Part shown: positions 1 through 14,054 of the stretch, in pieces
Layout of the letters: every line of letters begins with the position of its first letter
How positions within the stretch are numbered: the stretch's first letter is position 1
NCBI GenBank assembly: GCA_002435835.1
Contig: DIVM01000128.1
Coordinates: forward strand, 27,027 to 41,134
From: Firmicutes bacterium UBA6132
GTDB lineage: Bacteria; Bacillota_A; Clostridia; Tissierellales; Sedimentibacteraceae
Direction of reading: 5' to 3'
Length of the DNA stretch: 14,108 nucleotides
Notes under the pieces: model-generated
Seen by the model: the letters and a program-made list of their open reading frames with translations, nothing else
Told to the model about the DNA's origin: nothing
Databases searched by the model: none
Program-made: the position numbers and the translations under genes

Positions 1-1598
1 ATTACAACAGCTATAAAGGAGTGCCTCTTTGGGATTTATTGTTAAAATCAGGGGTGAATCCAAATATTGATGAAAACACAAAAATTAGATTTATAGCAGC
101 TGACAATTATAATTTTGCACCAATGACAATAAAAGAAATAAAAGACAGCTCTCTGTACGGGTATTATGAAAAAAGTCCTCTTGATAAAGGTGACGGAGCA
201 TTTAACTCTATAAGCGAAAAACCTTTATATTCAGGTCTTCCAGTTCTTGTTACTTATGGATTTAACGGATACCCATATGTAATAAGAGCAACTGATGAAG
301 GTTTTAATCCCGGTTTGGGAAATGAAGGAGGACCTCTTCGCATTATTTTTGGCAAAACAAATTATTCGGATACAAATGGCTCCCATCAGGTTCAGTTTGC
401 AAAAGAAATAATTGTTGGAGAAGGTGAATCCTTGTCCACAAACAGTCATGTAACCGGAGGAGTTACAACAGGGCAGGAAGTATCAGAAAATTCTTCCTTT
501 AAGCATAATGAAGAAATTTATAAAGATTATTTGGATATTCCTGTTTTGCGCATAACAGGATCACAGGTTAAAGAGCCTGTGACTTTGACACTAAGACAAA
601 TCGAAGCTTTAACAAAATATTCTGTAAGGGATATTTACACAGGGGATGGCATAAGAGAATTTGAAGGAGTTGTTCTTTGGGATTTAATTTCACAGGTTGC
701 AGGTATAAAGGAAGGTGTAGATGTTCCAAGTATAAGAGTTTTTTCGGGACCTAATTACAACCAAATATTAAGAAGTACTGATCAAGTCATAAACGGTGTT
801 TTGAATTCTCAGGGAAAAAATAAAAAAATTATTTTAGCATATGGTGTTGACGGTTATCCTCTTGTTCCAAACGAAGGAAGTGAAGGATATATAAACAACA
901 ATGCCTACGGACCTTTAAGACTGATTATTGAAGAAAGTAAGTCCATGTGTGTGAAGTGGACTGACTGCATTGTTGTAGGCACGGGCGAATATGAACATCC
1001 GAAATTGGAAGATGTAAAAGAAATTAACATCCCTGATATATCGCAGATTGACAAAGAAAGCATTACAATTAAAGACATTAAAAATTCATGGGCTAAAAAA
1101 GAAATAGAAAATATGGCAGCCATGGGATATGTAGAAGGATATAACGGAATGTTCAGACCATTTGACAATATTACAAGAGCAGAATTTACCACTCTAATTG
1201 TAAAAGTTTTAAGAATTGATTTGAACGATTCAGTTTCGGTTACATTATTTAAGGATGTTAAATCAAATGACTGGTATTCAAAATATATTGAAACAGCTTA
1301 TAATATTGGTTTAATTAAAGGTTATGAGGACGGTACATTTAAGCCTAATGCTCCCATAACAAGACAAGAAATTGCTTCAATTATAGGGCCTTTATTAAAT
1401 TCGAATTTATCTGAAAATGATGCTGATGAAATTCTTTCGCATTTTTCTGATAATGTAGATGATTATGCAAATATTTCCGCTGCTAAATGTGTAAAAGCTG
1501 AAATTATAAAGGGGCTTCCAAACAATTTATTTGCTGGTTCTAAAAATGCATCACGAGCTGAAGCAGCTGTTATGATACTAAGATTTTTGAAAAATTAA
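1..1598 (+). CDS. SLH-anchored surface protein with repeated SUOX/molybdopterin-like modules (5' end outside window)
   Basis: The reading frame is open to the left edge of the window. The residues just upstream of the GTG at 21 (YNSYKG) complete a YKGVPLWDLL motif typical of the oxidoreductase molybdopterin-binding (SUOX-like) fold, so GTG 21 is an internal codon and the true start lies upstream. Counting from that GTG, the tail of one module covers residues 1-133. A second module covers about 170-320, with FEGVVLWDLI at 214-223 and YGPLRLII at 296-303. Three SLH repeats follow at about 350-397, 409-460 and 472-524, with landmarks such as FRPFDNITRAEF and FKPNAPITRQEI. SLH repeats normally bind pyruvylated secondary wall polymer, so the protein should sit on the cell surface. 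The Mo-ligand Cys is absent from the complete module; its only cysteines, C310 and C316, lie near the module end. A terminator follows the stop codon. The redox role is inferred. Confidence 0.85.
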   Translation, partial: YNSYKGVPLWDLLLKSGVNPNIDENTKIRFIAADNYNFAPMTIKEIKDSSLYGYYEKSPLDKGDGAFNSISEKPLYSGLPVLVTYGFNGYPYVIRATDEGFNPGLGNEGGPLRIIFGKTNYSDTNGSHQVQFAKEIIVGEGESLSTNSHVTGGVTTGQEVSENSSFKHNEEIYKDYLDIPVLRITGSQVKEPVTLTLRQIEALTKYSVRDIYTGDGIREFEGVVLWDLISQVAGIKEGVDVPSIRVFSGPNYNQILRSTDQVINGVLNSQGKNKKIILAYGVDGYPLVPNEGSEGYINNNAYGPLRLIIEESKSMCVKWTDCIVVGTGEYEHPKLEDVKEINIPDISQIDKESITIKDIKNSWAKKEIENMAAMGYVEGYNGMFRPFDNITRAEFTTLIVKVLRIDLNDSVSVTLFKDVKSNDWYSKYIETAYNIGLIKGYEDGTFKPNAPITRQEIASIIGPLLNSNLSENDADEILSHFSDNVDDYANISAAKCVKAEIIKGLPNNLFAGSKNASRAEAAVMILRFLKN

Positions 1599-1604
1599 TT
1601 TAAT

Positions 1605-1641
1605 ATGCAAAAGCAGTCAATCTGCTTTTGCATGATTTTTT
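1605..1641 (+). terminator. Rho-independent terminator after the SLH protein gene
   Basis: A perfect 12-bp inverted repeat is visible: ATGCAAAAGCAG at 1605-1616 pairs with CTGCTTTTGCAT at 1622-1633 around the 5-nt loop TCAAT. It is followed by GA and six T (1636-1641). It begins seven bases after the TAA stop. The next gene starts only 12 bases later, so the hairpin may act as a partial terminator or attenuator within the locus. Confidence 0.85.
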
Positions 1642-1652
1642 ATGGGGGTATT

Positions 1653-2525
1653 ATGAAAAAGAAATTATTAGTTATTATGCTAATATTGATGATAACAGTT
1701 ACGGGATGTTCGGACAGCAAAAATAAAGAATCTGCAAATGATAAAGAACAGGTTCAAACAAATGAAACTATGGCTGAAAATTCAAATATTAATACAAACA
1801 GTTCAAATAAAGAAGAAATAACAAATGTACATAATGAAGAATCAAAAATCAATGATGATAATAACAATGATAAAAGTGATGTAAGTGAAGATAACAATGC
1901 TGATGCAAATAGATTAAATTCAGATAATTCATCAAGCATAAATAAAAATACAAATTCATCAATAACTAACAGTACAAACACTGAAAGCAATAATAAAAAT
2001 ATTTCTGATTCAGAGTTAGCTTCAATAACCATAGCTGATAATGAAACTGAAGATACTGAAGATTCGGATGAAAATACATATACTTTGAAAATTACAGGTA
2101 ATGTTTCTAATGAGATGAATTTGAGTTTAAGTGATTTAAAAGCAATGAACAATTATATTTTCGAAGGGGATTTTTTTTCGTTAAATAGCTTTGGCACGAA
2201 AGGATATACTCATTTTAAGGGAGTTAACCTTTGGAAAATATTAGATGAAAAATCACAAATATTAAGTACAGCTTCAAAAGTTACCGTAATTGCACATGAC
2301 GGATATAAAGTTGAATTCACAATTGAGCAGGTGAAAAAACAAGATTATATTGATGAACAAAATTTAGAAACGAAATATCCCATTATAATAGCTTGGGAAG
2401 AAAACAAAGAAGAATATGACCAAAAAGAAGGAGCACCATTTAAACTTGTGGTTGGGCAAAAAGAAGCTAATGATGTAAATAAACCTCAATGGGTATCGAA
2501 TATAGACAAAATAGTTATAGAATGA
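1653..2525 (+). CDS. Lipoprotein with long low-complexity spacer and C-terminal SUOX-like module
   Basis: I chose ATG 1653 because it gives a clean lipoprotein signal (MKKKLLVIM, hydrophobic stretch, VTGC) and has GGGGG at 1644-1648. An in-frame ATG at 1605 lies inside the terminator stem and would put extra residues ahead of the signal. The 290-residue product has its lipobox Cys at residue 19. An Asn/Ser/Asp/Glu-rich spacer of roughly 120 residues (20-142) could carry the domain across the peptidoglycan. A SUOX-like module fills 143-290, with FKGVNLWKIL at 188-197, AHDGYKVEF at 214-222 and a closing PQWVSNIDKIVIE. The module has no cysteine, so there is no Mo-ligand thiol; SLNSFGTK occupies that region. 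It starts the tightly packed gene run leading to the FMN-domain protein. The function is unknown; an extracytosolic binding or electron-transfer role is inferred from neighbours. Confidence 0.85.
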   Translation: MKKKLLVIMLILMITVTGCSDSKNKESANDKEQVQTNETMAENSNINTNSSNKEEITNVHNEESKINDDNNNDKSDVSEDNNADANRLNSDNSSSINKNTNSSITNSTNTESNNKNISDSELASITIADNETEDTEDSDENTYTLKITGNVSNEMNLSLSDLKAMNNYIFEGDFFSLNSFGTKGYTHFKGVNLWKILDEKSQILSTASKVTVIAHDGYKVEFTIEQVKKQDYIDEQNLETKYPIIIAWEENKEEYDQKEGAPFKLVVGQKEANDVNKPQWVSNIDKIVIE

Positions 2526-2538
2526 TGCGAGGAATAAA

Positions 2539-4125
2539 ATGAAAAATAAAAAGATTTACTTGTTGTTTTTTTCCGTTGTTGTATTTGTTGCAGCTGTATT
2601 ATTGTTTTTAAACAACTCATCAATGGATGAAAAAAAATATGTCAAGGAATTTTATCCGGATTCCAAAGAAATAAAGATTATTAAAAATATATCTGATGAT
2701 ATGTTTATAACTGTTAATTTCCCTGCAGTTCATAGAGCATATGAAGTTGACGACAAAATAAAAGCATTTGTTGTTAATAGTGTTGGATACAACGGTCCCG
2801 TAGAAGTACTGGTAGCCTTTGATTCGGATAATAATAAGTTGTTGGGCATAAGAGTTTTAAAACATGAAGAAGATGAAGATTATGCTAAATATATTGAAGA
2901 AAGCTGGTTTTTAGAAAGGTTTAAAAATTTGCTTGCAAATAAATATTTAAACCTTGTTGTACTTGATAAAAAAAATCCTGAAGACATTGTACAGGTTACA
3001 GGCGCAACCGTAAGTTCTCAGGCAGTTGTAAATGATGTGAATTCCGCCATAGGCGCATATCAATATTTAAACAATAAAATTGAAATGGCTAAGGTTGCCG
3101 ATGTCGTTCCTCAAGAAATGTGGGATAAGGATGAAAACAGTTTTGCCATAAATGTTGAAAATGATTCGATTAGAATTAATACGGATGAAATAAAGCAATA
3201 TGAGCAGGTAGAAAAGGACGTTGTTTTAATAAACACAACTGGTACAAAAACAGATATGCATGTTAAAGGACCAACTTTAAAACAAGTTCTACAAAATGAA
3301 AATATAGATCTATTAAATTTTGAAGCAATAGGCATAACTGGCAGGGATGGCTATTACACAATGGTTGATAAAGAAAAATTTAGCATAAATGATATTATAT
3401 TAGCATGGGAAATTGACGGCAAAGGAATTAAAAAAGAAGAAAAGCCAATACGGGTTATAATCCCTAATGAAATGGGACCGTATTGGGTTAAAATGGTTTC
3501 TAATATTGATTTATATGATGAAATATCGCCAAAAGAAATCAATAAAGTTCACATATTTAATGCTTTGACAGCGGACATAGAACCTTATTATTACGAATAT
3601 TACGGAAAAAAGGACAAATCCATAGAAGTGGGAAAAATATTAAATAAATTTGATTTAGTGGACCAAAAAGGTTTTTTTACCATGGCTGCTTTAGACGGAT
3701 TAATAAAAAATGAAACAATTTCATTGGTAAGACAAAGATATTTCATTAAAGTCGAAGGTGATAATGCTCCTATGAATATAGCTCCTAATTTCAAACTTGG
3801 AATGAATGTAAAAAACATGACTCATTTTTCCACTACAAAGGATGCCGTGATATTTCCTAAAAAAATGAAAGAAGTGGTGCGGACAAAGGAAATAGAAGGC
3901 AAAGAAATGCTTAATTTAGAAGATGTTTTGCTTACTTCGGGCATGAGGTGGGATGAACAAAGCAAGTTTAGTTTCATAAGCACGGATGGATTAAAAATTG
4001 ATTTATCCCTTCATGAAGTGCTTAATTTATACCTTGTGGAAGAAAATGAAAAAGTGAACATATATGAAGGAAATAAAATAGTTTTAAATAATTTGCTGAG
4101 GATTGAAAAAAATGAAATTAAATAA
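2539..4125 (+). CDS. Membrane-anchored FMN-binding-domain protein with SUOX-like modules
   Basis: The start is ATG 2539, with GAGG about eight bases upstream. The 528-residue product has an N-terminal membrane anchor or uncleaved signal at about residues 5-25. An FMN-binding domain of the RnfG/NqrC type covers about 75-175 and ends in VTGATVSS. In such domains the Thr of the (S/T)GA(T/S) motif, here T157, is the site where ApbE attaches FMN covalently. A SUOX-like module occupies about 205-327 (KGPTLKQVL, TGRDGYYTMV, MGPYWVKMVSNIDLY). Two more divergent stretches, about 355-415 and 440-525, look like degenerate copies; the second has LEDVLLTSGMRW followed by STDGLKIDL. No cysteine is present anywhere, so Moco coordination of the classical kind is excluded. 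It overlaps the next gene by 14 bases, which suggests coupled expression with the 4Fe-4S/FMN membrane protein, its likely electron donor. That partnership is inferred. Confidence 0.85.
   Translation: MKNKKIYLLFFSVVVFVAAVLLFLNNSSMDEKKYVKEFYPDSKEIKIIKNISDDMFITVNFPAVHRAYEVDDKIKAFVVNSVGYNGPVEVLVAFDSDNNKLLGIRVLKHEEDEDYAKYIEESWFLERFKNLLANKYLNLVVLDKKNPEDIVQVTGATVSSQAVVNDVNSAIGAYQYLNNKIEMAKVADVVPQEMWDKDENSFAINVENDSIRINTDEIKQYEQVEKDVVLINTTGTKTDMHVKGPTLKQVLQNENIDLLNFEAIGITGRDGYYTMVDKEKFSINDIILAWEIDGKGIKKEEKPIRVIIPNEMGPYWVKMVSNIDLYDEISPKEINKVHIFNALTADIEPYYYEYYGKKDKSIEVGKILNKFDLVDQKGFFTMAALDGLIKNETISLVRQRYFIKVEGDNAPMNIAPNFKLGMNVKNMTHFSTTKDAVIFPKKMKEVVRTKEIEGKEMLNLEDVLLTSGMRWDEQSKFSFISTDGLKIDLSLHEVLNLYLVEENEKVNIYEGNKIVLNNLLRIEKNEIK
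4098..4101 (+). promoter_or_regulatory. Ribosome binding site deciding the start of the 4Fe-4S/FMN gene
   Basis: GAGG lies 10 bases before ATG 4112 but only one base before the alternative TTG at 4103. The ATG is therefore the supported start. Confidence 0.6.
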
Positions 4126-5290
4126 ACGCAGCATAGTACAAATAATTATTACATTTTTTGTATTGGTGAACTGCATTTTTTACAAGCTTTATTTAAATGA
4201 TATTGTCAGCATAAAAATAATGTCCTTAGGTGATTTAAATCCTTATGGAGGGTGGAGCGCCTTAAAATCTTTAGTTACAGATGCTTCTTACAAATACAGG
4301 GGTATTACAAAAAGCATTGCTTTGACTATTTCAATAATGATAACATCATTTTTTATGGGCAGATTTTTTTGTGGATTTATCTGCCCAATTGGTGCCTTGC
4401 AGGATTTTTTTAAATTTCTTGGAAGCAATTTAAAAATAAAAGAAAAAAAGATATGGGAAAATAAATATTTCAATCCTGAAATTATAAAATATTTTATTTT
4501 GTTAGTGGCAGTTGTTTTAAGTTGTTTAAATCTTGGAAACATAATAGCACCATATTCGCCATGGGCTACATATTTAAATTTATTTATTGGTTTTAGTTTA
4601 AATATGGGAACATTTATTTTGATTATGATTATATTTTTTTCTTTATTTTTTAAGCGAATATTTTGCAGAGTTTTCTGTCCCTTAGGGGCATTTCAGTCTC
4701 TTTTATATGCTTTGGGTCCTTTGAAACTAAAAAAATCAAAATCATGCGGCATATGTGTAAAATGCTTTAACGATTGCCCTGTTGACATTAAAAATACTGA
4801 AGAATTAATTTCTCCAGAATGTGTAAACTGTACTTCCTGTTGTGAATATAAATGCATTCATAAAGATTCCAATCGTTCAGCCTGCAATGTGGAATTTGCA
4901 AAAAATCCTATTTCAAATAAGAAATATATAATATTAAGTTCATTGGTTTTTACATCAGTGTATTTAATTTTATTAATTTATCCTTTATCTTTTCAAACTA
5001 ATTTTACTGAAAGCAGTTTAAAGTTTAAAGACGGAATATATGGGGGAGAAGGAATGGGTTTTGGAGGAAGCATTTTTACCGAAATTAATGTTGAGGATGG
5101 ACAAATAAAAAATATTAAAATTATTAATCAAAATGAAACTCAAGGTTTTTATGAAGAAGCATTTAAGCAGATTTCCCAGGAAATAGTCGAAAAACAAAAT
5201 TTTAATGTGGATATAGTAAGCGGCGCCACAGCATCGAGCAGAGGAATACTAAATTCAGTAAAACAAGCTATCAGTAAATCATTGGAGTGA
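4112..5290 (+). CDS. Polytopic 4Fe-4S (NapH/NosR-like) membrane protein with C-terminal covalent-FMN-type domain
   Basis: ATG 4112 was preferred over TTG 4103 on ribosome-site spacing, giving 392 residues. Five membrane segments are visible, at about 8-28, 66-86, 125-145, 160-182 and 271-293. Two CxxxCP motifs (C87/C91 and C185/C189) close segments 2 and 4, as in the NapH/NosR/CprC family. A soluble ferredoxin-like stretch follows: C212, C215, C218, C222, then C237, C240, C243/C244, C248. After the last membrane segment comes an FMN-binding domain (about 305-392) with VSGATASS; T373 would carry the FMN. With positive charges (KR) next to the Cys motifs, the topology puts the Fe-S centres inside and the FMN outside. 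It should therefore carry electrons from a cytosolic donor across the membrane to flavin. In NosR and CprC the FMN domain is N-terminal, so this order is reversed. The electron donor and acceptor are unknown. Confidence 0.88.
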   Translation: MKLNKRSIVQIIITFFVLVNCIFYKLYLNDIVSIKIMSLGDLNPYGGWSALKSLVTDASYKYRGITKSIALTISIMITSFFMGRFFCGFICPIGALQDFFKFLGSNLKIKEKKIWENKYFNPEIIKYFILLVAVVLSCLNLGNIIAPYSPWATYLNLFIGFSLNMGTFILIMIIFFSLFFKRIFCRVFCPLGAFQSLLYALGPLKLKKSKSCGICVKCFNDCPVDIKNTEELISPECVNCTSCCEYKCIHKDSNRSACNVEFAKNPISNKKYIILSSLVFTSVYLILLIYPLSFQTNFTESSLKFKDGIYGGEGMGFGGSIFTEINVEDGQIKNIKIINQNETQGFYEEAFKQISQEIVEKQNFNVDIVSGATASSRGILNSVKQAISKSLE

Positions 5291-5293
5291 TAT

Positions 5294-5785
5294 ATGCAAA
5301 ATAAAAAAAATAACAAACTATATTTATTGATAATTATGGTATTGATGATGCTTTTCAGCTCATGTTCAAACCAAAACGAACAGATTTCATTGAAAATTAA
5401 TGCAAATGAAGAGATTCAAAATATAAATGCTGACTTTATATTTAATCATGAAAATGTAATTCTCTTTCCTTCAGTAGTAAGAAGCAGCGGCAAAAAGCCA
5501 GTTGAAACCAATTTTAAAGGTGTTGAATTATCAACACTGTTTAAATCAGCAAATATTGATGCAAAAAACTTTGACAAATTTACTTTTAAAGGCTCTGATG
5601 GATATTCAATTGTATTAAAAAAAGAAGAAATAATTGAACCAAACAATGCATATCTTGTTTTTGAAAGGGACGGAGAAAAATTAAAATCAAATAAAAGTGG
5701 AAGTGGTCCCTTTCAGTTAATAATAAGAAATGATCCATTTAGCCAGCGCTGGGTAAAACGTGTTAATGAAATCATTTTAGAATAA
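5294..5785 (+). CDS. Small SUOX-like domain lipoprotein
   Basis: The start is ATG 5294, three bases after the preceding stop, with GGAG about seven bases upstream. The 163-residue product has a basic N-terminus, a hydrophobic stretch and the lipobox FSSC with Cys 24, so it should be lipid-anchored on the outer face of the membrane. The rest (31-163) is one compact SUOX-like module: NFKGVELSTLF at 73-83, GSDGYSIVL at 100-108, GSGPFQLII at 136-144 and RWVKRVNEIILE at the end. Where molybdenum enzymes have the Cys ligand this protein has VRSSGKKP, so there is no thiol ligand. It is clearly similar to the small anchored protein at 7204-7725, with the same architecture and GSGPF signature. It sits immediately after the 4Fe-4S/FMN membrane protein and before the ECF substrate component, so it could be a redox partner or a substrate-capture protein; neither is proven. 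Confidence 0.8.
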   Translation: MQNKKNNKLYLLIIMVLMMLFSSCSNQNEQISLKINANEEIQNINADFIFNHENVILFPSVVRSSGKKPVETNFKGVELSTLFKSANIDAKNFDKFTFKGSDGYSIVLKKEEIIEPNNAYLVFERDGEKLKSNKSGSGPFQLIIRNDPFSQRWVKRVNEIILE

Positions 5786-5818
5786 CATAAATTATAATAA
5801 GGACTAAAAAGGACGAAA

Positions 5819-6370
5819 ATGAAAAATAAAACATTGTTAAGCAGTTTTTCTGTATTTGATTTAATAATGATTGCAGTTATTTCTGCATTAGGCGTTGCTA
5901 CGAAGCCAATAGTCGTGCCTCTTGTCCATATTGTTACAGGTCCTTTGTTCATACCTGGAGGAGCGGTTGCAGGAGGATTTTATATGATGTGGATTGTAAT
6001 AGGCAAGGGAATAGTTAAAAAAAATGGAACAGGTACATTGATTGGAATAGTGCAATCTATTTTAGTTATTGCAACCGGCGCTATGGGCTCCCACGGCATC
6101 ATGAGCTTAATTTCCTACACTTTGCCAGGATTATCAGCAGACTTAATATTTTTAATTTCTAAAAATAAAAATTATAACTTGCTTCACTATATGTTTGGCT
6201 GTATAACAGCAAATATGGTAGGAACATTAATATCCAACTTAATGTTTTTCAGGCTTCCACAAGTTACGGTTATTGTAATTTTATCCGCTTCAGCATTATC
6301 CGGTGCTTTAGGGGGCATCATTGCTTACAGTTTAATAAAAATACTTAACAACATGAATGTAATAATTTAA
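5819..6370 (+). CDS. ECF transporter substrate-binding (S) component, substrate unknown
   Basis: ATG 5819 has AAGGA about six bases upstream; 183 residues. It is a very hydrophobic protein with roughly five to six membrane segments. Gly/Pro-rich loops (VTGPLFIPGGAVAGGFYMMW at 39-58 and LSGALGGIIAY near 160-170) resemble the YkoE-like/ECF S-component style. The identification rests mainly on context: the two ATPases and the T component of an ECF importer follow in the same gene run, which has no other candidate S subunit. S components bind the small molecule and toggle in the membrane when docked on the T subunit. I do not recognise the specificity. A riboflavin-type assignment is not supported by any motif I can see, and a cofactor precursor is only a guess from neighbouring genes. 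The 33-base gap before it holds only the ribosome site. Confidence 0.72.
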   Translation: MKNKTLLSSFSVFDLIMIAVISALGVATKPIVVPLVHIVTGPLFIPGGAVAGGFYMMWIVIGKGIVKKNGTGTLIGIVQSILVIATGAMGSHGIMSLISYTLPGLSADLIFLISKNKNYNLLHYMFGCITANMVGTLISNLMFFRLPQVTVIVILSASALSGALGGIIAYSLIKILNNMNVII

Positions 6371-6388
6371 TTGCAAGGGGCTGAAAGC

Positions 6389-7165
6389 ATGAATAGAAAA
6401 AATAAAATGATTGCATCTTTTACGGTTATATGTACATTGATTATAATTTTTTTACTGTATTATTTGAGTTTTTATGTTCCTCTAAAAATAACTCAAGCAT
6501 ATTATGATGCGAAGGAATGTCTTGATAAAAACGAAAAGGTAATGGTTGTTCTTTTAGACGGCTTTTCCTATGATGAATACATAGAAGCCAAAAATAAAAA
6601 TAAAATTCCTTTTTTAGAAAATTTTTATAAAGGGAAGGCGTTAAGCGTATATAAGCCTGTTACAAATGCAGGCTTTGCAGCAATAATTACAGGACAACCT
6701 CCCATTAAAAATGGAGTATTTGACAGAAGCTTCAGAGAATTAAAAACTGAAAGTATATTTGCTTATGCACAAAGAAAAAATAAAAAGTCAATATTGCTTG
6801 AAGCAGATATTAAAATATTAAATACTGAAATAGAACCTCATCTCCATTTAGATGAAAACAAGAATGGAAATATTGATGATGAAATATTTAATGATGCAAT
6901 GGAAGCATCAATTAGTGATTATGATTTAATTTTCATACATTTCCATGGAATTGACGACAGAGGTCACAGCTTTGGCCCAAATTCGGAAGAAACATTAAAT
7001 TATATAAATAAAATTGACAGCTATATAAAAAATATAAATGCTGTTTGGGGAAATACCATTATTTTAACTGCGGACCACGGAATGCATGAAGAAGGCGTAG
7101 GGGGAAGTCATGGCAAATTTATAAAAGAAGATATGAATGTTCCGTATTTTAAAGTCATTCCATAA
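6389..7165 (+). CDS. Membrane-anchored NPP-family (alkaline phosphatase superfamily) phosphodiesterase/phosphatase
   Basis: ATG 6389 follows AAGGGG at 6375-6380; the in-frame TTG at 6371 precedes that site and is rejected. The 258-residue protein has an N-terminal anchor at about 8-29 and then an ectodomain of the nucleotide pyrophosphatase/phosphodiesterase type. The two-metal site is complete: D57 (VVLLDGF), the Thr nucleophile T92 nine residues before the TG of IITGQPP, D189 and H193 in the DxxGHxxGP signature, D229 and H230 (TADHGM), and H241 (GSHGKF). It is shorter than typical secreted NPPs (often over 400 residues), so substrate-binding insertions are likely missing. Enzymes of this family hydrolyse phosphodiester or pyrophosphate bonds of nucleotides and related compounds. 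Lying next to the S component, it may trim a phosphorylated or dinucleotide cofactor outside the cell before import; that role is inferred. Confidence 0.85.
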   Translation: MNRKNKMIASFTVICTLIIIFLLYYLSFYVPLKITQAYYDAKECLDKNEKVMVVLLDGFSYDEYIEAKNKNKIPFLENFYKGKALSVYKPVTNAGFAAIITGQPPIKNGVFDRSFRELKTESIFAYAQRKNKKSILLEADIKILNTEIEPHLHLDENKNGNIDDEIFNDAMEASISDYDLIFIHFHGIDDRGHSFGPNSEETLNYINKIDSYIKNINAVWGNTIILTADHGMHEEGVGGSHGKFIKEDMNVPYFKVIP

Positions 7166-7203
7166 TATTAAATTAAAATTATAAAATTATTAAAGAGGGT
7201 TAT

Positions 7204-7725
7204 ATGAAAAATAAAACTGCTGCAGTTGTTGCTGCAATTGTTTTAATATTGCTTGCAGCTTCGTTATTTATAAGTTTAAAATTTAATGAAACCAATATAG
7301 CTTTGCAGCAGGAATTGCTTTTGAAATCACAAATTAGTTTAAAAGTGGCTGACAAAGAAATAATGATTGGTTTAAATGATATTGTTTCAGCAGAAGAAAA
7401 CTTCAGAGCTGTTCTTGATACATCTGTTTCATCAGCAAAATATCATGATTATACAGGTGCACAGCTGAAAAATATTTTGATAAATAAAAATATAAATATA
7501 GAAAATTATGATACGGTATTATTAAGTGGTGCTGACGGATTTTCTGCAGCATATGCAGCTGAAGAAGTAATTAAAGACAATAATGTTTATATTGCTTATA
7601 AAGAGGACGGTAATTTGTTAAAAAGCATGGACAGTGGAGGAAGTGGACCTTTTTTGTCAATAATTGTTCAGGACTCGTTCAGCAACAGAAGATGCAAATA
7701 TCTTACAAAAATAGAGGTAAAATGA
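7204..7725 (+). CDS. Small membrane-anchored SUOX-like protein, paralog of the 5294-5785 lipoprotein
   Basis: ATG 7204 has GAGGG about seven bases upstream; 173 residues. An N-terminal hydrophobic segment (about 6-26) lacks a lipobox Cys, so it is probably an uncleaved anchor or an ordinary signal peptide. The module at about 43-173 follows the same plan as the lipoprotein at 5294: YTGAQLKNIL at 83-92, SGADGFSAAY at 108-117, GSGPFLSII at 146-154, then a region near FSNRRCKYLTKIEVK. The position of the Mo-ligand Cys has DTSVSSAK; the single Cys (164) is near the C-terminus. The gene is placed between the phosphodiesterase and the ECF ATPases, and its stop overlaps the ATPase start. That makes it a candidate accessory protein of the importer rather than a stand-alone enzyme. 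The function is not known. Confidence 0.78.
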   Translation: MKNKTAAVVAAIVLILLAASLFISLKFNETNIALQQELLLKSQISLKVADKEIMIGLNDIVSAEENFRAVLDTSVSSAKYHDYTGAQLKNILINKNINIENYDTVLLSGADGFSAAYAAEEVIKDNNVYIAYKEDGNLLKSMDSGGSGPFLSIIVQDSFSNRRCKYLTKIEVK

Positions 7726-8396
7726 TGGATGCAGTTGTTGTCAATAATTTAAACTTCAAATATAAAAATTCAAAAGAAAAAATAATAAATGATTTAAGCT
7801 TTAAAATTAAAAAAGGAGAAACCGTAGCATTATTAGGCAATTCCGGTTCAGGAAAAAGCACATTGTGCAATTGTATCTGCGGATTAATACCTAAAATTTA
7901 TGAAGGTGAATATTTTGGTGATGTAATAATATTTGGCCAAAATATTAAAACAATGACCCTGTCTAAAATATCCCAAAAAGTGGGAATTATATTTCAAAAT
8001 CCTGTGAATCAGCTTTTTTCGCCTACAATTGAAGACGAACTTGCTTTTGGACCTGAAAATCTTTGCGTGGACAGGGAAGAAATAGGGCATCGCATTGACG
8101 AAGTTTTAAAATTAATTAATATGGAAGAGTATCGCTGTCAAAATCCTAACAATATATCAGGAGGACAGCAGCAGCTAATTGCCATTGCTTCTGTGTTGAT
8201 GCTTAATCCAGAAATAATAATATGTGATGAAATAATGTCATTCATAGACAGGGAAGGAAAGGAAATCATAAAAAATCTTTTAAAAAATTTAAAAGAGAGA
8301 GGAAAAACAATAATTATTGTTGACCATGATTTAGATAATATTGAATTGGCGGACAGAACAATTAATATAGAGGCTGGTTTGAATGGAAAATTTTAA
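7725..8396 (+). CDS. ECF transporter ATPase subunit (EcfA-type, first)
   Basis: Two adjacent ATG codons (7722 and 7725) follow GAGG at 7714-7717. I use 7725 for its 7-base spacing, but 7722 differs by only one residue. The 223-residue ABC ATPase has Walker A GNSGSGKST (38-46), Q-loop Gln 91 in IIFQNPVNQLF, signature ISGGQ (144-148), Walker B with D168/E169 in ICDEIMSFID, and switch His 201 in IVDHD. The FQNPxxQLF context around the Q-loop is typical of ECF/cobalt-type ATPases. It works as a heterodimer with the next gene product to drive the T component. The Walker B region reads DEIMSFID rather than the usual DEPTSxLD, a mild departure. Its start touches the preceding stop and its end overlaps the next gene. 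Confidence 0.92.
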   Translation: MDAVVVNNLNFKYKNSKEKIINDLSFKIKKGETVALLGNSGSGKSTLCNCICGLIPKIYEGEYFGDVIIFGQNIKTMTLSKISQKVGIIFQNPVNQLFSPTIEDELAFGPENLCVDREEIGHRIDEVLKLINMEEYRCQNPNNISGGQQQLIAIASVLMLNPEIIICDEIMSFIDREGKEIIKNLLKNLKERGKTIIIVDHDLDNIELADRTINIEAGLNGKF

Positions 8397-9072
8397 AACT
8401 GATAAATTTCAAAATAATTTTATAGAAATAAACAGCATATGCTTTAAATACAATGACAATACAGTTTTCAACGATTTTTCTCTTGTTTTAAAAAAGGACG
8501 AAACTACTTTTTTATCCGGCAAAAACGGAAGCGGCAAAACTACTCTAACTAAACTCATTGTGACAATATTAAAACCTCAAAGGGGAAACATTTTGCTGTT
8601 TGGGCAAAACACTAAAAATATGTCCTTGACTCAGGCAGGAAAAGCAATAGGTTATGTATTTCAGCATCCCGAAAGGCAGCTTTTTGCTTCTTCTGTTTTA
8701 GAACAGCTCACATTTCCTTTGATTTTTAATGGCATGTCAGAAAATGAAGCACTAAAAAAAGCTGAAGAAATGATTAGTATATTTAATTTAGAAAAAATAA
8801 AAAATTCATATCCGTTTTTTTTAAGTTATGGAGAAAAAAGAAAATTAGCAATTGCATCAGTTTTAATGCATGACCCTGAGTACATTATTTTTGATGAACC
8901 TACAGCGTCTTTAGACAATGAAATAATTGAAAATTTATCTTTGGTAATAATGAATTTAAGAAAAAATAAAAAAGGATTGTTAATAATCAGCCACCATGAT
9001 AATTTTATCAAAAAACATGGAGAAAGAATAATTTTGCTTGAAGGAGGGATAGTTAAAGGTGACTACAATTAA
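8383..9072 (+). CDS. ECF transporter ATPase subunit (EcfA-prime-type, second)
   Basis: ATG 8383 has GAGG at 8370-8373, nine bases upstream, and overlaps the previous gene by 14 bases. The 229-residue ABC ATPase has Walker A GKNGSGKTT (46-54), Q-loop Gln 94 in YVFQHPERQLF, Walker B D171/E172 in IIFDEPTASLD, and switch His near 204-205 (ISHHD). Its signature motif is LSYGE (147-151) instead of LSGGQ, keeping the Ser, the second Gly and an acidic residue in place of Gln. In a heterodimer with the upstream ATPase, one composite ATP site would therefore use a canonical signature and the other this variant. It belongs to a dedicated (group I) ECF importer, with all subunits in one gene run. Confidence 0.92.
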   Translation: MENFKTDKFQNNFIEINSICFKYNDNTVFNDFSLVLKKDETTFLSGKNGSGKTTLTKLIVTILKPQRGNILLFGQNTKNMSLTQAGKAIGYVFQHPERQLFASSVLEQLTFPLIFNGMSENEALKKAEEMISIFNLEKIKNSYPFFLSYGEKRKLAIASVLMHDPEYIIFDEPTASLDNEIIENLSLVIMNLRKNKKGLLIISHHDNFIKKHGERIILLEGGIVKGDYN

Positions 9073-9802
9073 TAAATTAGACCCTCGGACTAAAATTGTT
9101 CTTGTTTTGATGCTATCCAGTATTTCATTAATGTATGATGAATTATTAATGCTTTTTATAATTTTGTTATTGACTTTTGCTTCAGCTTTATTAATAAATG
9201 TTGATTTTCAATCTATAATTTTTAAATTAAAAAAAATTTTAAAATTAATTATTGTAATTGCAATAATTCAATCCTTATTTACAAAAGAAGGTACTCCAAT
9301 TTTGCAAATAGGAATGATTACTATTTTTACAAACTATGGTATAATAAAAGCACTTCAGTTTTTGTTAAGGATGAGCATAATTATTGTATCATCATCCATC
9401 ATTATTACTTCTTCAAGCAGAGAAATAATCCAAGGTTTAGTTAAATGGGGATGTCCTTATGAAATTGCATTCATGGTCATGGCTGCTATTAGGTTTTTGC
9501 CTGTTTTTAAAGAAGAATTGACTGATATAACAATTGCTCTTAAGCTAAGAGGTATAGATTTTAATAGAATAAAAATAAATCAAAAATTAAAAATATATAA
9601 ATACATATTGTTGCCAATAATAACTAATTCAATACTTAAAGCAAGGGAGCTGTCTTCTGCAATGGAAATGAGAGCTTTCAGGGCATATCCAGTAAGGACA
9701 AGTTATATGGTTCTGAAAATGCAAAAAACAGATTATTTAGTTTTAGTGATTTGTTTATTTATATCAGCAATATTATTTATAATTCAATGGAGGCTAATAT
9801 GA
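9059..9802 (+). CDS. ECF transporter T component (EcfT-type permease scaffold)
   Basis: GTG 9059 follows GGAGGG at 9043-9048 with 10-base spacing and overlaps the ATPase gene by 14 bases. The 247-residue protein has several membrane segments: about 13-47 (a long hydrophobic run), 62-72, 95-118, 135-150 and 226-243. It carries the two coupling-helix motifs that contact the ATPases: ALKLRG (160-165, canonical AxxxRG) and AMEMRA (201-206, last Gly replaced by Ala). The opening KLDPRTKI is also typical of the CbiQ/EcfT family. It links the two ATPases to the S component encoded at 5819-6370. Its stop codon overlaps the start of the MobB-like gene (ATGA), so translation of the two is probably coupled. 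Confidence 0.9.
   Translation: MTTINKLDPRTKIVLVLMLSSISLMYDELLMLFIILLLTFASALLINVDFQSIIFKLKKILKLIIVIAIIQSLFTKEGTPILQIGMITIFTNYGIIKALQFLLRMSIIIVSSSIIITSSSREIIQGLVKWGCPYEIAFMVMAAIRFLPVFKEELTDITIALKLRGIDFNRIKINQKLKIYKYILLPIITNSILKARELSSAMEMRAFRAYPVRTSYMVLKMQKTDYLVLVICLFISAILFIIQWRLI
9789..9793 (+). promoter_or_regulatory. Ribosome binding site deciding the start of the MobB-like gene
   Basis: GGAGG lies five bases before ATG 9799. The open frame extends back to 9751, but only ATG 9799 has this site and gives the conserved MobB N-terminus (MKVFSVIG). Confidence 0.65.
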
Positions 9803-10539
9803 AAGTATTTTCTGTTATCGGAATATCGGATTCGGGCAAAACAACTACAATTGAAAAATTAATCAAAGAGCTAATTAAAAGAAATTATTCAGTTGGAACA
9901 GTCAAAGAAATACGTTCCCATGACTTTAAAATGGATGCAGAAGGAACAAACACTTTTGTACATAGACAGGCCGGGGCTACATTGGTTACAGCAAGAGGAG
10001 AAAGAGAAACAGGAATAATGTATCAAAAAAGATTAAGCATTAATGAAATATTAAGCGCTTATTCCCATGATATTGTAATATTAGAAGGAGTAAGGGATAC
10101 TTCAGCACCTAAAATAGTTGCTGCTCATGACGCAGAATCTATAGAAATGAGGCTTGATGAAACGGTATTTGCAATTACCGGAAGGGTTTCCGCTAAAATT
10201 GATGAGTATAAAGGACTACCTGCCATAAACGCTTTGACCGATGTTGAAAAATTAGCAGATTTAATAGAAGAAAAAGTATTTGATAAACTTCCGGATATAA
10301 ACTGCAAAAAATGCGGCCTTTCATCCTGTAATGAAATGTGTTCCTTAATCATTAAAGGACAAAGAAAAAGGTCCGACTGTATTCAATCAAAACAGCAGTT
10401 AATAGTAAAAATAAATGGTAAGGAAATAGCGATGATCCCGTTTGTAGAAAATATATTTAAAAATACTGTTGAAGGTATAGCAAAAGAATTAAAAGGATAC
10501 AGCTCAAATGGAGACATCGAAATATGCATCAAGAGATAA
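9799..10539 (+). CDS. mobB: MobB-family P-loop GTPase fused to a 4Fe-4S motif
   Basis: ATG 9799 overlaps the EcfT stop (ATGA); 246 residues. The N-terminal half is MobB-like: P-loop GISDSGKT (8-15), the SHDFKMDAEG and HRQAGATL motifs (40-62), and VILEGVRD (93-100). MobB proteins are adapter GTPases that assist nucleotide attachment in molybdenum cofactor maturation. After the GTPase there is a Cys motif, C169, C172, C177 and C194 (CxxCGxxxC, then 16 residues, then C). Its spacing matches the 4Fe-4S domain of the acetyl-CoA synthase corrinoid subunit family (PF04060); C181 is an extra Cys. A short C-terminal domain (about 200-246, VKINGKEIAMIPFVENIF) follows. The start of the fold and the motif order are clear. 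What it does in an ECF/redox cluster is inferred: cofactor handling or a GTP-driven chaperone role. Confidence 0.82.
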   Translation: MKVFSVIGISDSGKTTTIEKLIKELIKRNYSVGTVKEIRSHDFKMDAEGTNTFVHRQAGATLVTARGERETGIMYQKRLSINEILSAYSHDIVILEGVRDTSAPKIVAAHDAESIEMRLDETVFAITGRVSAKIDEYKGLPAINALTDVEKLADLIEEKVFDKLPDINCKKCGLSSCNEMCSLIIKGQRKRSDCIQSKQQLIVKINGKEIAMIPFVENIFKNTVEGIAKELKGYSSNGDIEICIKR

Positions 10540-11159
10540 AACTTATAAGCAAAAGAAATGAAGTGAAAAGGATTATTAATGATGATAAAACATATATTAT
10601 AAAAAAATTCAGATGTTTGGATGAATTTGATAAAGAAAAAAATATTTTAAACATATTAAAAGAAAACAATGCGAATGTGCCAGAAATATTATATGCTGAA
10701 AAAAACACATTATTTCTTCAGGATTTAGGCGAATTTACTTTGCTTAAATGGTATGAACAAATTGAAAATAAAAATTCAGAGTGCTATGAAGAAATAATTT
10801 TAAAATTATGCTTTTATTTCAGTAATATATATGAGATATTTAAAAATAATTTCAAAGAACAACTCATATTGTATGATGTTAATTTCAGAAATTTTATAAT
10901 TAAAAATAATGAAGTATACGGGATTGATTTTGAACTTGTTCAAAAAGGTGAATTGGAAAATGATGCAGGCAAATTAGCTGCATATGCATTAACATACGAT
11001 CCATCCAATACTCATTGGAAAATTAAATTTTGCAATGTACTTATAAATATGTTTTCAGATAAATTAAATATTGATAAAAAATTAATATTGGAAGAGCAAA
11101 ATAAAGAGTTGAACAACATATACAGGAGACGCAATATTAATGTACAAAATAGAAACTAA
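10524..11159 (+). CDS. Small protein-kinase-fold phosphotransferase (Bud32/KdkA/APH-like), substrate unknown
   Basis: ATG 10524 has GGAG about 10 bases upstream and overlaps the MobB-like gene by 16 bases; 211 residues. The minimal kinase landmarks are present: a candidate ATP-binding Lys in YIIKKF (K27/K28), an acidic helix with E34/E38, a catalytic loop LYDVNFRNF with D118 and N123, and GIDFE with D135 as the metal-binding Asp. There is no obvious glycine-rich loop. The size resembles Bud32-like, Rio-like or lipopolysaccharide/Kdo kinases rather than full-length aminoglycoside phosphotransferases. As a cytosolic kinase in an operon with an importer and an ectophosphodiesterase, it could re-phosphorylate an imported compound. 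It could equally phosphorylate a protein or cell-envelope sugar. The substrate cannot be read from the sequence. It is followed by an overlapping Cys-rich gene. Confidence 0.7.
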   Translation: MHQEIKLISKRNEVKRIINDDKTYIIKKFRCLDEFDKEKNILNILKENNANVPEILYAEKNTLFLQDLGEFTLLKWYEQIENKNSECYEEIILKLCFYFSNIYEIFKNNFKEQLILYDVNFRNFIIKNNEVYGIDFELVQKGELENDAGKLAAYALTYDPSNTHWKIKFCNVLINMFSDKLNIDKKLILEEQNKELNNIYRRRNINVQNRN

Positions 11160-11736
11160 AATTAATAAAATAATAATGAATGATTTAATGCGTAATTACA
11201 TGGACAAAAAAACAATAGAGGGATATTGCAAAGAATGCAGCAAATATGGAAATGTTTGGTCCTGCCCTCCATATGATTTCAGCACTGAAAATTATTTAAA
11301 TCAGTTTAAGAATGTGCATGTAATAGGAACAAAAGTAATATTTGACGAAGAAGCATTAGAAAAAACTTATACAAAAGAAGAAATAAATAATATTTCATAC
11401 GATACAGTTATTAGTGTAAGAAAAAAAGTTTTTGATAAATTAATAAAATTAGAAGAAATTTATCCTGAGGGCAAAATTATAAATTCAGGTAATTGTACAA
11501 TTTGTAATATCTGTACAAGAACAAGCAATATAAAATGCATTCATGAGCAGGATTTAAGATATTCATTAGAATCTCTTGGATTTGATGTGGGAAAAGTTAC
11601 AAAAGAAATCCTTAATATAGAATTAAAATGGCCTACACATACAAGACTTCCTGAATATTTAACTTTGGCAAGTGGTTTTATGACAAATTTACAAATAGAA
11701 AATAGTGAAATAAATAATCTATTGACAAATTTGTAA
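11140..11736 (+). CDS. DUF2284-family Cys-rich putative metal-binding protein
   Basis: ATG 11140 has AGGAGA at 11124-11129 and overlaps the kinase gene by 20 bases; 198 residues. Two cysteine groups define the family. The first is C30, C33 and C42 in YCKEC followed by YGNVWSCPPY. The second is C119, C122, C125 and C133, followed by LRYSLESLGFDV. Such patterns suggest iron-sulfur or zinc binding, and members are found in many anaerobes without a firmly established role. In the family the last Cys is usually followed by xHP before the R-Y-S motif; here it reads CIHEQDLRYS, a small departure. There is no signal peptide, so it should be cytosolic. It ends the gene run; the promoter for the next unit overlaps its 3' end, so no terminator is seen for this operon. 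Confidence 0.82.
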   Translation: MYKIETKINKIIMNDLMRNYMDKKTIEGYCKECSKYGNVWSCPPYDFSTENYLNQFKNVHVIGTKVIFDEEALEKTYTKEEINNISYDTVISVRKKVFDKLIKLEEIYPEGKIINSGNCTICNICTRTSNIKCIHEQDLRYSLESLGFDVGKVTKEILNIELKWPTHTRLPEYLTLASGFMTNLQIENSEINNLLTNL

Positions 11737-11756: not shown

Positions 11757-12038
11757 GAAGTTAAGAATAATATAGTACATATTAAATGCGATGAAAAGAA
11801 GAGTAATTTATAAATCATGACAAAGAGAACCGGGACGGTGAAAAACGGTGATTGATTTTAAATGAACATGGCCTTGGAGCATTGTACTCGAACTAATTTA
11901 GTTAGAGTATACCGGTTTGTAACCGTTAAAATACATGGTCTATGACCTATTGAGGCATCTGTTGCAAAACATGTGCAAAAAAGAGTGGTAACGCGATAAT
12001 TCGCCTCTTTGCTTTTATGAGCAAAGGGCGATTTTTTT
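11757..12038 (+). ncRNA. T-box leader (methionine, AUG specifier) controlling metG
   Basis: The roughly 280-base stretch before metG carries the hallmarks of a tRNA-sensing T-box leader. A Stem I-like region starts with GAGAACCGG and GGTGAAAA (about 11825-11843) and contains AATGAACATGGCCTTGGAGC. The conserved GAA...TTGGAGC context places ATG 11868-11870 as the specifier codon, matching Met. The conserved T-box sequence AAGAGTGGTAACGCG sits at 11981-11995, where UGGU can pair with the ACCA end of tRNA-Met. AAGAG (11981-11985) can pair with CTCTT (12005-12009) to form the antiterminator. The alternative is the terminator at 12001-12038. When uncharged tRNA-Met binds, read-through into metG is expected. 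The core reads UGGUAAC rather than the common UGGNACC. The 5' boundary is approximate and follows the promoter. Confidence 0.9.
12001..12038 (+). terminator. T-box-controlled intrinsic terminator before metG
   Basis: TCGCCTCTTTGCT (12001-12013) pairs with AGCAAAGGGCGA (12020-12031) around TTTATG, with one bulged T. Seven T follow (12032-12038). The 5' arm overlaps the 3' side of the antiterminator, so the two structures exclude each other. Confidence 0.92.
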
Positions 12039-12077: not shown

Positions 12078-14054
12078 ATGAATAAAGGAAAATATTATAT
12101 AACAACTGCAATTGCATATACTTCTGGAAAACCTCATATAGGAAATACTTATGAGATAGTTTTAGCAGACAGTATTGCAAGATTTAAAAAATTAAACGGA
12201 TATGATGTTTATTTTCAAACTGGAACTGATGAACATGGAGAAAAAATTCAATTAAAAGCACAGGATGCTAATAAAACTTCACAGCAATTTGTTGATGAAA
12301 TAGCTTCACAAATTAAAACAATTTGGGATACTATGAACACAAGCTATGACAATTTTGTTAGAACAACTGATGCAAACCACATTAAACAAGTTCAAAAAAT
12401 ATTTAAAAAATTATTTGAACAAGGTGACATATACAAAGGAACTTATGAAGGATGGTACTGCACTCCTGATGAAGCATTTTTCACAGAGTCCCAATTAGTT
12501 GACGGCAAATGTCCTGACTGTGGAAGAGATGTTCACAAAGCTAAAGAAGAAGCTTATTTCTTTAAAATGAGCAAATATGCTGATAGATTAATGAAACATA
12601 TTGAAGATAACCCAAAGTTTATTCAGCCTGAATCTCGTAAAAACGAAATGGTAAACAATTTCTTAAAACCTGGTCTTCAAGATCTTTGTGTTTCAAGAAC
12701 ATCATTTAACTGGGGAGTTCCTGTTACATTTGATGAAGGTCATGTTGTATATGTTTGGATCGATGCATTATCTAATTACATTACATTCCTTGGCTATGAT
12801 GTAGATGGAAACCATGGAGATTTATATAAAAAATATTGGCCAGCAGATGTACATTTAATAGGAAAAGATATTTTAAGATTCCATACAATTTATTGGCCGA
12901 TAATATTAATGGCTTTAGGAGAAGAGCTTCCAAAACAAGTATTTGGTCATCCATGGCTTTTAGTTGGAGAAGACAAAATGTCTAAATCAAGAGGAAATGT
13001 AGTTTATGCTGATGATTTAGTTAATTATTTTGGTGTTGATGCTGTTAGATATTATGTTCTTCATGAAATGCCATTTGCTAATGATGGAACATTAACTTAT
13101 GAATTAATGATTGAAAGAATTAATTCTGATTTAGCTAATATTCTTGGAAATTTAGTTAATAGAACTATTACAATGACAAATAAATATTTTAACGGAGAAA
13201 TATTAGCTCCTACAGAAAAAGAAGCAATTGATGATGAACTTGTAAATCTTGCTTTACAAACTCCTAAAAATGTTGAAGCTAAAATGGACGAATTAAAAGT
13301 TGCAGATTCCATCGATGAAATATTTACTCTTTTAAGAAGAAGTAATAAATATATAGATGAAACTCAGCCATGGGTTCTTGGAAAAGATGAAAGTAAAAAA
13401 GAAAGACTTGGAACAGTTTTATATAACTTACTTGAATCAATTCGTATAGCTGCAGTTTTATTGGAGCCGTTTTTACCTGAAACAGCTAATAAAATATATA
13501 CTCAGTTAAATACTAAAAAAACAAATTGGGAATCAATTGAAAAATTTGATGGAATGATTGTAGGAGAAAAAGTTTCAACTCCAGAAATATTGTTCGCAAG
13601 AATAGATGCTGTTAAAAAATTAGAAGAAATTAATAATAAAGAAGGTAAAGTTGTGGAAAATAAAGAAACAAAAGAAGAGCAGATTGTTGATAAAAAAGAA
13701 GAAATAAAAGAAGAAGCACAAAATGATGATGGTTTAATAACTATTGACGATTTCGCTAAAATAGATTTAAGAGTAGCTGAAGTTGTTGAAGCAAAAAAGC
13801 ATCCTGATGCTGATAAACTTTTAGTTTTACAGTTAAAACTTGGAGAAGAAATAAGGCAGGTAGTATCTGGAATAGCAAAATATTATGAGCCTGAAGATTT
13901 AATAGGCAAAAAGGTTGTAATGGTTTATAATTTGCAGCCAGTTAATTTAAGAGGATTAGATTCTTATGGAATGATTCTTGCAGCTAAAAAGGGTAAGAAA
14001 TTAACTTTAGTTTCTACTTTAGAAGATTTAGCTTCTGGAGCAAAAATAAGCTAA
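12078..14054 (+). CDS. metG: Methionyl-tRNA synthetase with C-terminal tRNA-binding domain
   Basis: ATG 12078 follows AGGAGG at 12068-12073. The 658-residue class I synthetase attaches Met to tRNA-Met in the cytosol. The HIGH motif is HIGN (20-23) and the KMSKS loop is KMSKS (300-304). A zinc-knuckle region has C128, C145 and C148, but the partner normally in CxxC reads CTPD (D131), so one ligand is substituted. The anticodon-binding helical domain covers about 340-540, followed by a charged Lys/Glu linker (about 520-550). A C-terminal OB-fold tRNA-binding domain of the Trbp111/EMAP type fills about 553-658 (DFAKIDLRVAEV, HPDADKLLVLQL, QVVSGIA), which usually makes the enzyme dimeric. It is a monocistronic T-box-regulated unit as far as this window shows. 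No terminator is visible in the 54 bases that remain downstream. Confidence 0.97.
   Translation: MNKGKYYITTAIAYTSGKPHIGNTYEIVLADSIARFKKLNGYDVYFQTGTDEHGEKIQLKAQDANKTSQQFVDEIASQIKTIWDTMNTSYDNFVRTTDANHIKQVQKIFKKLFEQGDIYKGTYEGWYCTPDEAFFTESQLVDGKCPDCGRDVHKAKEEAYFFKMSKYADRLMKHIEDNPKFIQPESRKNEMVNNFLKPGLQDLCVSRTSFNWGVPVTFDEGHVVYVWIDALSNYITFLGYDVDGNHGDLYKKYWPADVHLIGKDILRFHTIYWPIILMALGEELPKQVFGHPWLLVGEDKMSKSRGNVVYADDLVNYFGVDAVRYYVLHEMPFANDGTLTYELMIERINSDLANILGNLVNRTITMTNKYFNGEILAPTEKEAIDDELVNLALQTPKNVEAKMDELKVADSIDEIFTLLRRSNKYIDETQPWVLGKDESKKERLGTVLYNLLESIRIAAVLLEPFLPETANKIYTQLNTKKTNWESIEKFDGMIVGEKVSTPEILFARIDAVKKLEEINNKEGKVVENKETKEEQIVDKKEEIKEEAQNDDGLITIDDFAKIDLRVAEVVEAKKHPDADKLLVLQLKLGEEIRQVVSGIAKYYEPEDLIGKKVVMVYNLQPVNLRGLDSYGMILAAKKGKKLTLVSTLEDLASGAKIS

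Follow-up and report, generated by a model that had tools for sequence, protein, structure and literature searches.

A run of 14 genes in a bacterial genome fragment is likely to encode a salvage system that takes up the tungsten/molybdenum (W/Mo) pyranopterin cofactor. The fragment, hereafter the window, is a 14,108-nucleotide stretch of Firmicutes bacterium UBA6132 (contig DIVM01000128.1, positions 27,027 to 41,134). All 14 genes lie on the + strand (3-11736) and are followed by a T-box leader and a methionyl-tRNA synthetase gene. The evidence, obtained by computation, comprises the gene set, its synteny, a riboswitch with terminator in relatives, co-occurrence with tungsten enzymes and missing cofactor synthesis, and the PruR-like fold of one surface module. 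The riboswitch and the loss of synthesis genes are what point to a W/Mo pyranopterin as the cofactor. An earlier note, written from the sequence, had proposed a distinct envelope system joining an outward electron path to the uptake of a cofactor or substrate. This reading is partly supported: its outline holds and the set is conserved beyond close relatives. It missed which cofactor is concerned, and the electron path does not appear to be the core of the system (see below).

We propose the following mechanism. Modules of the PruR/SUOX fold, anchored to the S-layer and the membrane, would bind pterin cofactor set free by other organisms and hand it on towards the cell. An ectoenzyme of the NPP type would, judging from its family, cut a nucleotide off a dinucleotide form or take off phosphate. 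An energy-coupling factor (ECF) importer, consisting of a PF09819 S component (S), two ATPases (A1 and A2) and a T component (T), would import the cofactor, and inside the cell a MobB-FeS GTPase and a small kinase, which by its family may put phosphate back, would help to re-process it. Binding of intracellular cofactor to the riboswitch would then lower expression. A membrane iron-sulphur (Fe-S) protein may carry electrons to the flavin mononucleotide (FMN) domain of a protein that also contains a module of the pterin-binding fold; the most likely purpose would be to make or keep the captured cofactor reduced.

Predicted riboswitch control

RF01055 is the Rfam family of the molybdenum/tungsten-cofactor riboswitch (Moco riboswitch, after molybdenum cofactor). 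A scan of genome contigs for the FMN/SUOX protein of the window yielded 80 loci. L001-L035 were treated as relatives, and an Rfam scan of 21 of these found RF01055 at 16. The first SUOX-SLH gene has the riboswitch in front of it in L001, L002, L004, L006, L007, L008, L009, L017 and L018; in L019 the riboswitch precedes the cluster, and in L022, L023, L025, L030, L031 and L035 it lies close to or within related clusters. None was found in the fetched stretch of L014, L021, L024, L027 and L028; copies lie just outside the scanned stretch of L021 and L024, and L014 is cut inside the cluster. All 35 genomes of this set (labelled G, as loci are labelled L) carry at least one copy. RF01055 also directly precedes S in two Desulfotomaculaceae relatives (L098, L102), and in L115 it ends 49 nucleotides upstream of the S match. 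In a second sample, 199 genomes of the order of G009 that were not chosen by the system, RF01055 lies no more than 9.5 kb upstream of, and on the same strand as, 24 of the 26 S genes; the two others are in G013, where S lies on a contig of 5,063 bases (L013), and G186.

Stem P3 is absent from 33 of 34 aptamers, as judged by script and by eye. The script gave 28 of 34, six unparsed or mis-parsed aptamers were P3-less by eye, and L030, one of the 28, has P3 in a covariance-model alignment that covered L004, L009 and L030. In sections of Regulski et al. 2008 (PMC2408646) the P3-less form is linked to the tungsten cofactor, with one exception left open: RNAs of this form that precede putative sulfite oxidase genes of Syntrophomonas wolfei. 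The RNA family is the same as here, and an import system is not described in those sections. The system described here may account for the exception.

An intrinsic terminator follows 21 of 22 aptamers, as against 11 of 380 random pieces; a wider panel gave 27 of 34 aptamers. Given the placement of the terminator after the aptamer, the riboswitch would be an OFF switch. Pairing suggestive of a competing antiterminator helix was also seen (helices of 4 to 10 bp, shuffle values 0.02 to 0.98). In the loci scanned, RF01055 scored above threshold and no flavin or thiamine riboswitch did; import of flavin or thiamine, an idea prompted by the FMN_bind domains and the S family, was dropped for this reason.

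Four of the genomes carry unusually high numbers of Moco riboswitches (24 in G019, 23 in G022, 30 in G023, 17 in G027), some in tandem. G177, which has no moaA/moaC, contains a second Moco riboswitch (L127) with genes for a FecCD-type ABC importer, a MobA-MoeA fusion and MobB behind it. In G050, a second Moco riboswitch precedes an ordinary aldehyde dehydrogenase gene (Aldedh; L128, 7619-9480), perhaps swapped against a tungsten-dependent aldehyde oxidoreductase.

Distribution relative to cofactor synthesis

AFOR_N was used as the marker for tungsten-type aldehyde oxidoreductases (AOR). The 35 genomes chosen for an FMN/SUOX relative contain AFOR_N in all 35 cases, S in 33, MoaC in 23, MoeA_N in 22 and MoaA above cut-off in 20, with MoaA fragments in G003, G012 and G025. 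Twelve of them lack both MoaA and MoaC. All twelve carry S and AFOR_N, and one (G016) has MoeA_N. Because all twelve are metagenome assemblies, judging from their titles, the test was repeated on the 199 genomes of the order of G009.

S is present in 26 of the 199 genomes, RF01055 in 64 (including all 26, under stricter filters than in the 35 genomes), AFOR_N in 75 (including 24 of the 26) and MoaC in 109. A 90% completeness filter was requested for these searches; whether it acted is not visible in the results. The MoaA search in the order set covered 19 genomes beyond the first 35. Nine of the 26 S genomes lack MoaC and MoaA, and seven of these also lack MoeA_N. Among genomes with AFOR_N, S occurs in 8 of 10 without synthesis and in 16 of 65 others (p 0.0012, ignoring kinship, as do the p values that follow). 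In this split G219, whose moaA lies at a contig edge, and G212, with a moaA-like gene of 162.5 bits, are treated as having synthesis, and G169, with a paralogue of 114 bits only, as S-negative. By MoaC alone, without moving G219 and G212, the figures are 8 of 12 and 16 of 63 (p 0.014). When eight genomes whose AFOR_N match is weak are left out of the first split, it reads 8 of 10 and 16 of 57 (p 0.0029). Two synthesis-less S genomes are essentially single contigs, G050 (4,683,267 bases of 4.7 Mb) and G177 (3,009,901 of 3.0 Mb), which shows that the loss of synthesis is not only a draft artefact.

Gene content and conservation of gene order

The features of the window are as follows (all genes on the + strand).

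3..1598, slhSUOX, protein with SUOX-like modules and three SLH repeats (Pfam), predicted to be anchored to the S-layer; truncated at the left window edge (5' end cut)
1605..2525, lpSUOX1, lipoprotein with one SUOX-like module (42.7 bits; lipobox read from the sequence; true start probably a later ATG)
2539..4125, fmnSUOX, the FMN/SUOX protein: RnfG-like FMN domain (TGAT), PruR/SUOX-fold module and third conserved domain (Pfam, structure model, fold match)
4103..5290, FeSfmn, membrane Fe-S protein (NapH/NosR-like, weak) with C-terminal FMN domain (SGAT; Pfam; ATG start at 4112)
5294..5785, lpSUOX2, small anchored SUOX-like module (24.2 bits)
5819..6370, S component of the ECF importer (PF09819, 59.2 bits; alignment of 20 relatives)
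6371..7165, NPP-type phosphodiesterase with N-terminal anchor (Phosphodiest, 3.2e-19)
7204..7725, SUOX3, small anchored SUOX-like module adjoining the ATPases, with a relocated cysteine in R-C-K (22.1 bits, just under cut-off)
7692..8396, ECF ATPase A1 (ABC_tran)
8383..9072, ECF ATPase A2 (ABC_tran)
9059..9802, ECF T component, CbiQ family (CbiQ, 1.8e-30)
9751..10539, MobB-like GTPase with Fe-S domain (MobB 4.3e-26, FeS 2.9e-8; true start probably 9799)
10524..11159, APH/RIO-like small kinase (APH, 23.0 bits, just under the cut-off of 23.2)
11140..11736, DUF2284 protein, overlapping the end of the kinase gene (7e-19)
11782..12011, T-box leader (RF00230, 105.6 bits)
12078..14054, methionyl-tRNA synthetase (MetRS), behind the T-box leader

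Adjacent genes overlap or lie at most 38 nucleotides apart from 1598 to 11736, in line with the close packing described in the earlier note. Its reading of the parts was largely accurate: the open reading frames lie at the positions it gave, both covalent-FMN-type motifs can be read directly in the translations, SUOX-like modules occur in five genes, the ECF importer is complete, and the NPP, MobB-like and kinase-fold proteins are real. The DUF2284 gene, which it had counted into the set, is a real gene outside it.

Of the candidates scored, 222 are related to the FMN/SUOX protein at E<=1e-3, and the best 120 of these align with 95% or more of the query at 60 to 99% identity. The order slhSUOX, lpSUOX1, fmnSUOX, FeSfmn, lpSUOX2, S, NPP, SUOX3, A1, A2, T, MobB, APH recurs in L001-L021, reaching APH in L007, L008, L009, L014 and L017; in L009 an opposite-strand frame lies between NPP and SUOX3. 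As the gene order recurs in many genomes, the anatomy of the window is not due to chance. Relatives were mapped by simple open reading frame picking and BLAST at 1e-4, which missed some genes (S in L008 and L116, later found by separate searches). Since many loci are cut by contig ends, the counts below are lower bounds. L111-L122 were chosen for holding S, so that S, A and T counts there follow by construction.

Loci with a relative in L001-L021, L022-L035 and L111-L122:
lpSUOX1: 21/21, 11/14, 2/12
fmnSUOX: 21/21, 14/14, 9/12
FeSfmn: 20/21, 3/14, 2/12
S: 14/21, 7/14, 11/12
NPP: 13/21, 1/14, 11/12
T: 13/21, 6/14, 12/12
MobB: 11/21, 3/14, 11/12
APH: 8/21, 3/14, 10/12

The place of slhSUOX is taken by relatives of 214 to 1339 residues in 18 of the 21 close loci. 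The importer does not adjoin the FMN genes in L003, L005, L015 and L016; S is located elsewhere in G005, G015 and G016, and G003 has no S. The gene set is thus shared well beyond close relatives; restriction to these would have refuted the reading in the earlier note.

SUOX-like modules

The Oxidored_molyb (SUOX) family of Pfam matches five genes of the window, three above the curated cut-off of 24 bits (42.7, 38.8 and 24.2) and two just under it (23.9 and 22.1). In 174 of 179 modules the 35 residues ahead of the xGVxL motif contain no cysteine that could ligate Mo, or any other; the position of the ligand was defined by this motif and not by a superposed structure. SUOX-type catalysis was ruled out because the ligating cysteine is missing. 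A structure model and fold match show that the module of fmnSUOX folds like PruR, a SUOX fold of ~135 residues without the catalytic cysteine; a first model, built from 17 close sequences (predicted local distance difference test, pLDDT, 67.7), was not used. Judging from this one module, the SUOX-like modules would have a PruR-like, presumably pterin-binding fold that lacks the catalytic cysteine, a character the earlier note had not recognised when it placed them on the cell surface.

PruR proteins of Proteobacteria are likewise exported SUOX folds without the Mo-ligating cysteine, and PruR is described as binding small reduced pterins. PruR works with DcpA-type signalling proteins, whereas the modules here, in Clostridia and relatives, accompany an importer, S-layer repeats and FMN domains. 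A parallel in way of working is the Isd haem relay of Gram-positive bacteria, in which wall-anchored capture domains hand a cofactor to a membrane importer; the folds and the cofactor are unrelated, and we claim no membership.

ECF importer and putative processing enzymes

S, the two ATPases and T are encoded together in the window. The P-loop is kept in 28 of 29 relatives of A1 (with SGG) and in 29 of 29 relatives of A2. Among solved structures, none is related to S by sequence at E up to 0.1. The NPP shows a weak sequence match to human-type ENPP structures, and its [STA]DHG motif is kept in 20 of 25 relatives. The MobB P-loop is kept in 24 of 26 relatives and both kinase motifs of the APH-like protein in 21 of 21.

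ECF vitamin importers under riboswitch control are a described group, according to sections of PMC3766115. They share with the present system S, two ATPases and T, a cofactor riboswitch in front, and retention of the importer where synthesis is missing; here, surface pterin-fold modules, an NPP and an electron arm are added. No Mo/W-cofactor importer appears among the ECF functional categories in those sections.

A second S-like set, 31 to 37% identical, was found at L123-L126, with no RF01055 at these four loci. XdhC lies near the S paralogue in L123 and L124, and L124 also has MobA-like-HD and MoCF_biosynth genes; these neighbours link the S family to the molybdenum cofactor. The paralogues were dropped as a neutral control owing to the XdhC genes.

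Fe-S/FMN electron arm

FMN_bind matches the protein at 2539-4125 (4.9e-14) and that at 4103-5290 (3.8e-16), both with the predicted flavinylation motif [S/T]GA[T/S]. The latter also matches Fer4_5 (1.6e-19) and resembles NapH and NosR, below both cut-offs. FMN_bind with [S/T]GAT next to a membrane Fe-S protein recalls the flavinylated extracytosolic systems of the RnfG/NqrC and NosR/NapH type. Here, in contrast, the FMN domain is fused to a pterin-binding-fold module within a Mo/W-cofactor regulon. The main texts of two flavinylation surveys (PMC8238504, PMC11334425) mention neither molybdopterin nor ECF.

The smallest form of the system that was seen, in L115, consists of riboswitch, S, a SUOX module, A, A and T; BLAST finds no counterpart of the FMN or Fe-S proteins of the window there within 11.5 kb. 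For this reason we do not regard the electron arm as central; it perhaps reduces the captured cofactor or keeps it reduced.

Several variant loci were seen. Five relatives (L022, L023, L024, L025, L034; FMN proteins of 214-240 residues) have TCAT, not TGAT, as the flavin-acceptor motif. In L008 a protein with FAD_binding_2 and FMN_bind follows the kinase gene (18649-20538), and frames of similar size follow APH in L009, L014 and L116. A domain scan of the Pelotomaculum locus L023 found a MotA/ExbB-like gene and a DUF2149 gene among SUOX-like genes (6332-7277), which might point to an energised surface relay; frames of similar size occur in L022, L024, L025 and L034.

Assessment of the salvage hypothesis

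A number of observations weigh against cofactor salvage. RF01055 is absent from the window itself, which starts too far downstream for it to be visible, the window's own upstream sequence being missing; L027 and L028 carry S and no RF01055 in the scanned stretch. Several of the eight synthesis-less genomes with S and AFOR_N look related, and kinship was ignored in the p values. G172 and G202 have AFOR_N and neither synthesis nor S, while G051 and G180 have S and no AFOR_N. Over the 199 genomes MoaC is not rarer with S (missing in 9 of 26, versus 81 of 173 without S), as would be expected if many S-less genomes simply make no use of the cofactor. The genomes of cultured strains (G001, G002, G004, G007, G009, G017 and G018) all encode cofactor synthesis of their own. 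Only 12 of 25 NPP relatives retain the motif DxxGHxxGP. Finally, parts of PMC13259868 describe the pocket of PruR itself as too small for Moco.

The known PruR ligands would suit an importer that takes a metal-free precursor or another pterin (molybdopterin, cyclic pyranopterin monophosphate or reduced pterin), the metal being added inside or the pterin serving otherwise. Metal insertion could indeed happen inside G177, which keeps the MobA-MoeA fusion and MobB behind its second riboswitch. We nevertheless consider such a substrate unlikely: seven of the nine synthesis-less S genomes are without MoeA_N, the cyclic monophosphate would also require MoaD/MoaE, and a free pterin unrelated to Moco leaves the riboswitch unexplained. 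It is more improbable still that the operon is mainly an extracellular electron-transfer or reductase system whose importer brings in a flavin or thiamine-like vitamin. The FMN, Fe-S and RnfG-like parts are real, and so is the flavoprotein gene after the kinase gene of L008, but the lack of ligating cysteines in nearly all modules, the finding of RF01055 where no flavin or thiamine riboswitch scored, and the L115 importer with no recognised FMN or Fe-S gene nearby all speak against it. Some ECF importers carry metal ions, which could be taken to favour import of tungstate or molybdate. Moco riboswitches also control molybdate transporters, as parts of PMC2408646 report. Such an importer would not replace moaA/moaC, yet S is present in eight of the ten AOR genomes without them; pterin-fold modules, NPP, kinase and MobB suit an organic cofactor; and G177 has its separate FecCD-type importer. 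We give oxyanion import very little credence.

Salvage of the W/Mo pyranopterin cofactor therefore remains our preferred explanation. A more specific version, which we put forward tentatively and at somewhat less than even chances, is a dedicated reductive importer of the finished, metal-loaded cofactor. Outward Fe-S/FMN electrons would act on cofactor held by the S-layer-borne modules, the relocated cysteine of the importer-adjacent module would be a temporary ligand before ECF import, and some anaerobe lineages would have dropped synthesis to live on the cofactor of dead neighbours.

According to sections of PMC9793310, the prevailing view is that cells needing Moco must make it, and uptake of exogenous Moco has not been examined or observed beyond C. 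elegans. Our literature searches, which left most subscription journals and supplements outside their coverage, found no description of a bacterial Mo/W-cofactor importer; the parts are known, and the combination and proposed substrate are new as far as these searches show. If salvage is correct, anaerobic bacteria may pick up ready-made W/Mo cofactor from outside instead of making it, which would change the must-make-it picture. Natural auxotrophs for the tungsten cofactor would then be expected in anaerobic food webs, and the genes would open a way to studying the passage of an unstable cofactor across membranes.

Neighbouring genes

DUF2284 and MetRS have no match in any of the 47 compared loci (0/47 each) and were ruled out as parts of the system. 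The conserved unit thus ends with the kinase-fold gene, and the DUF2284 gene is probably a local addition. The T-box leader and MetRS form a separate unit adjoining the operon.

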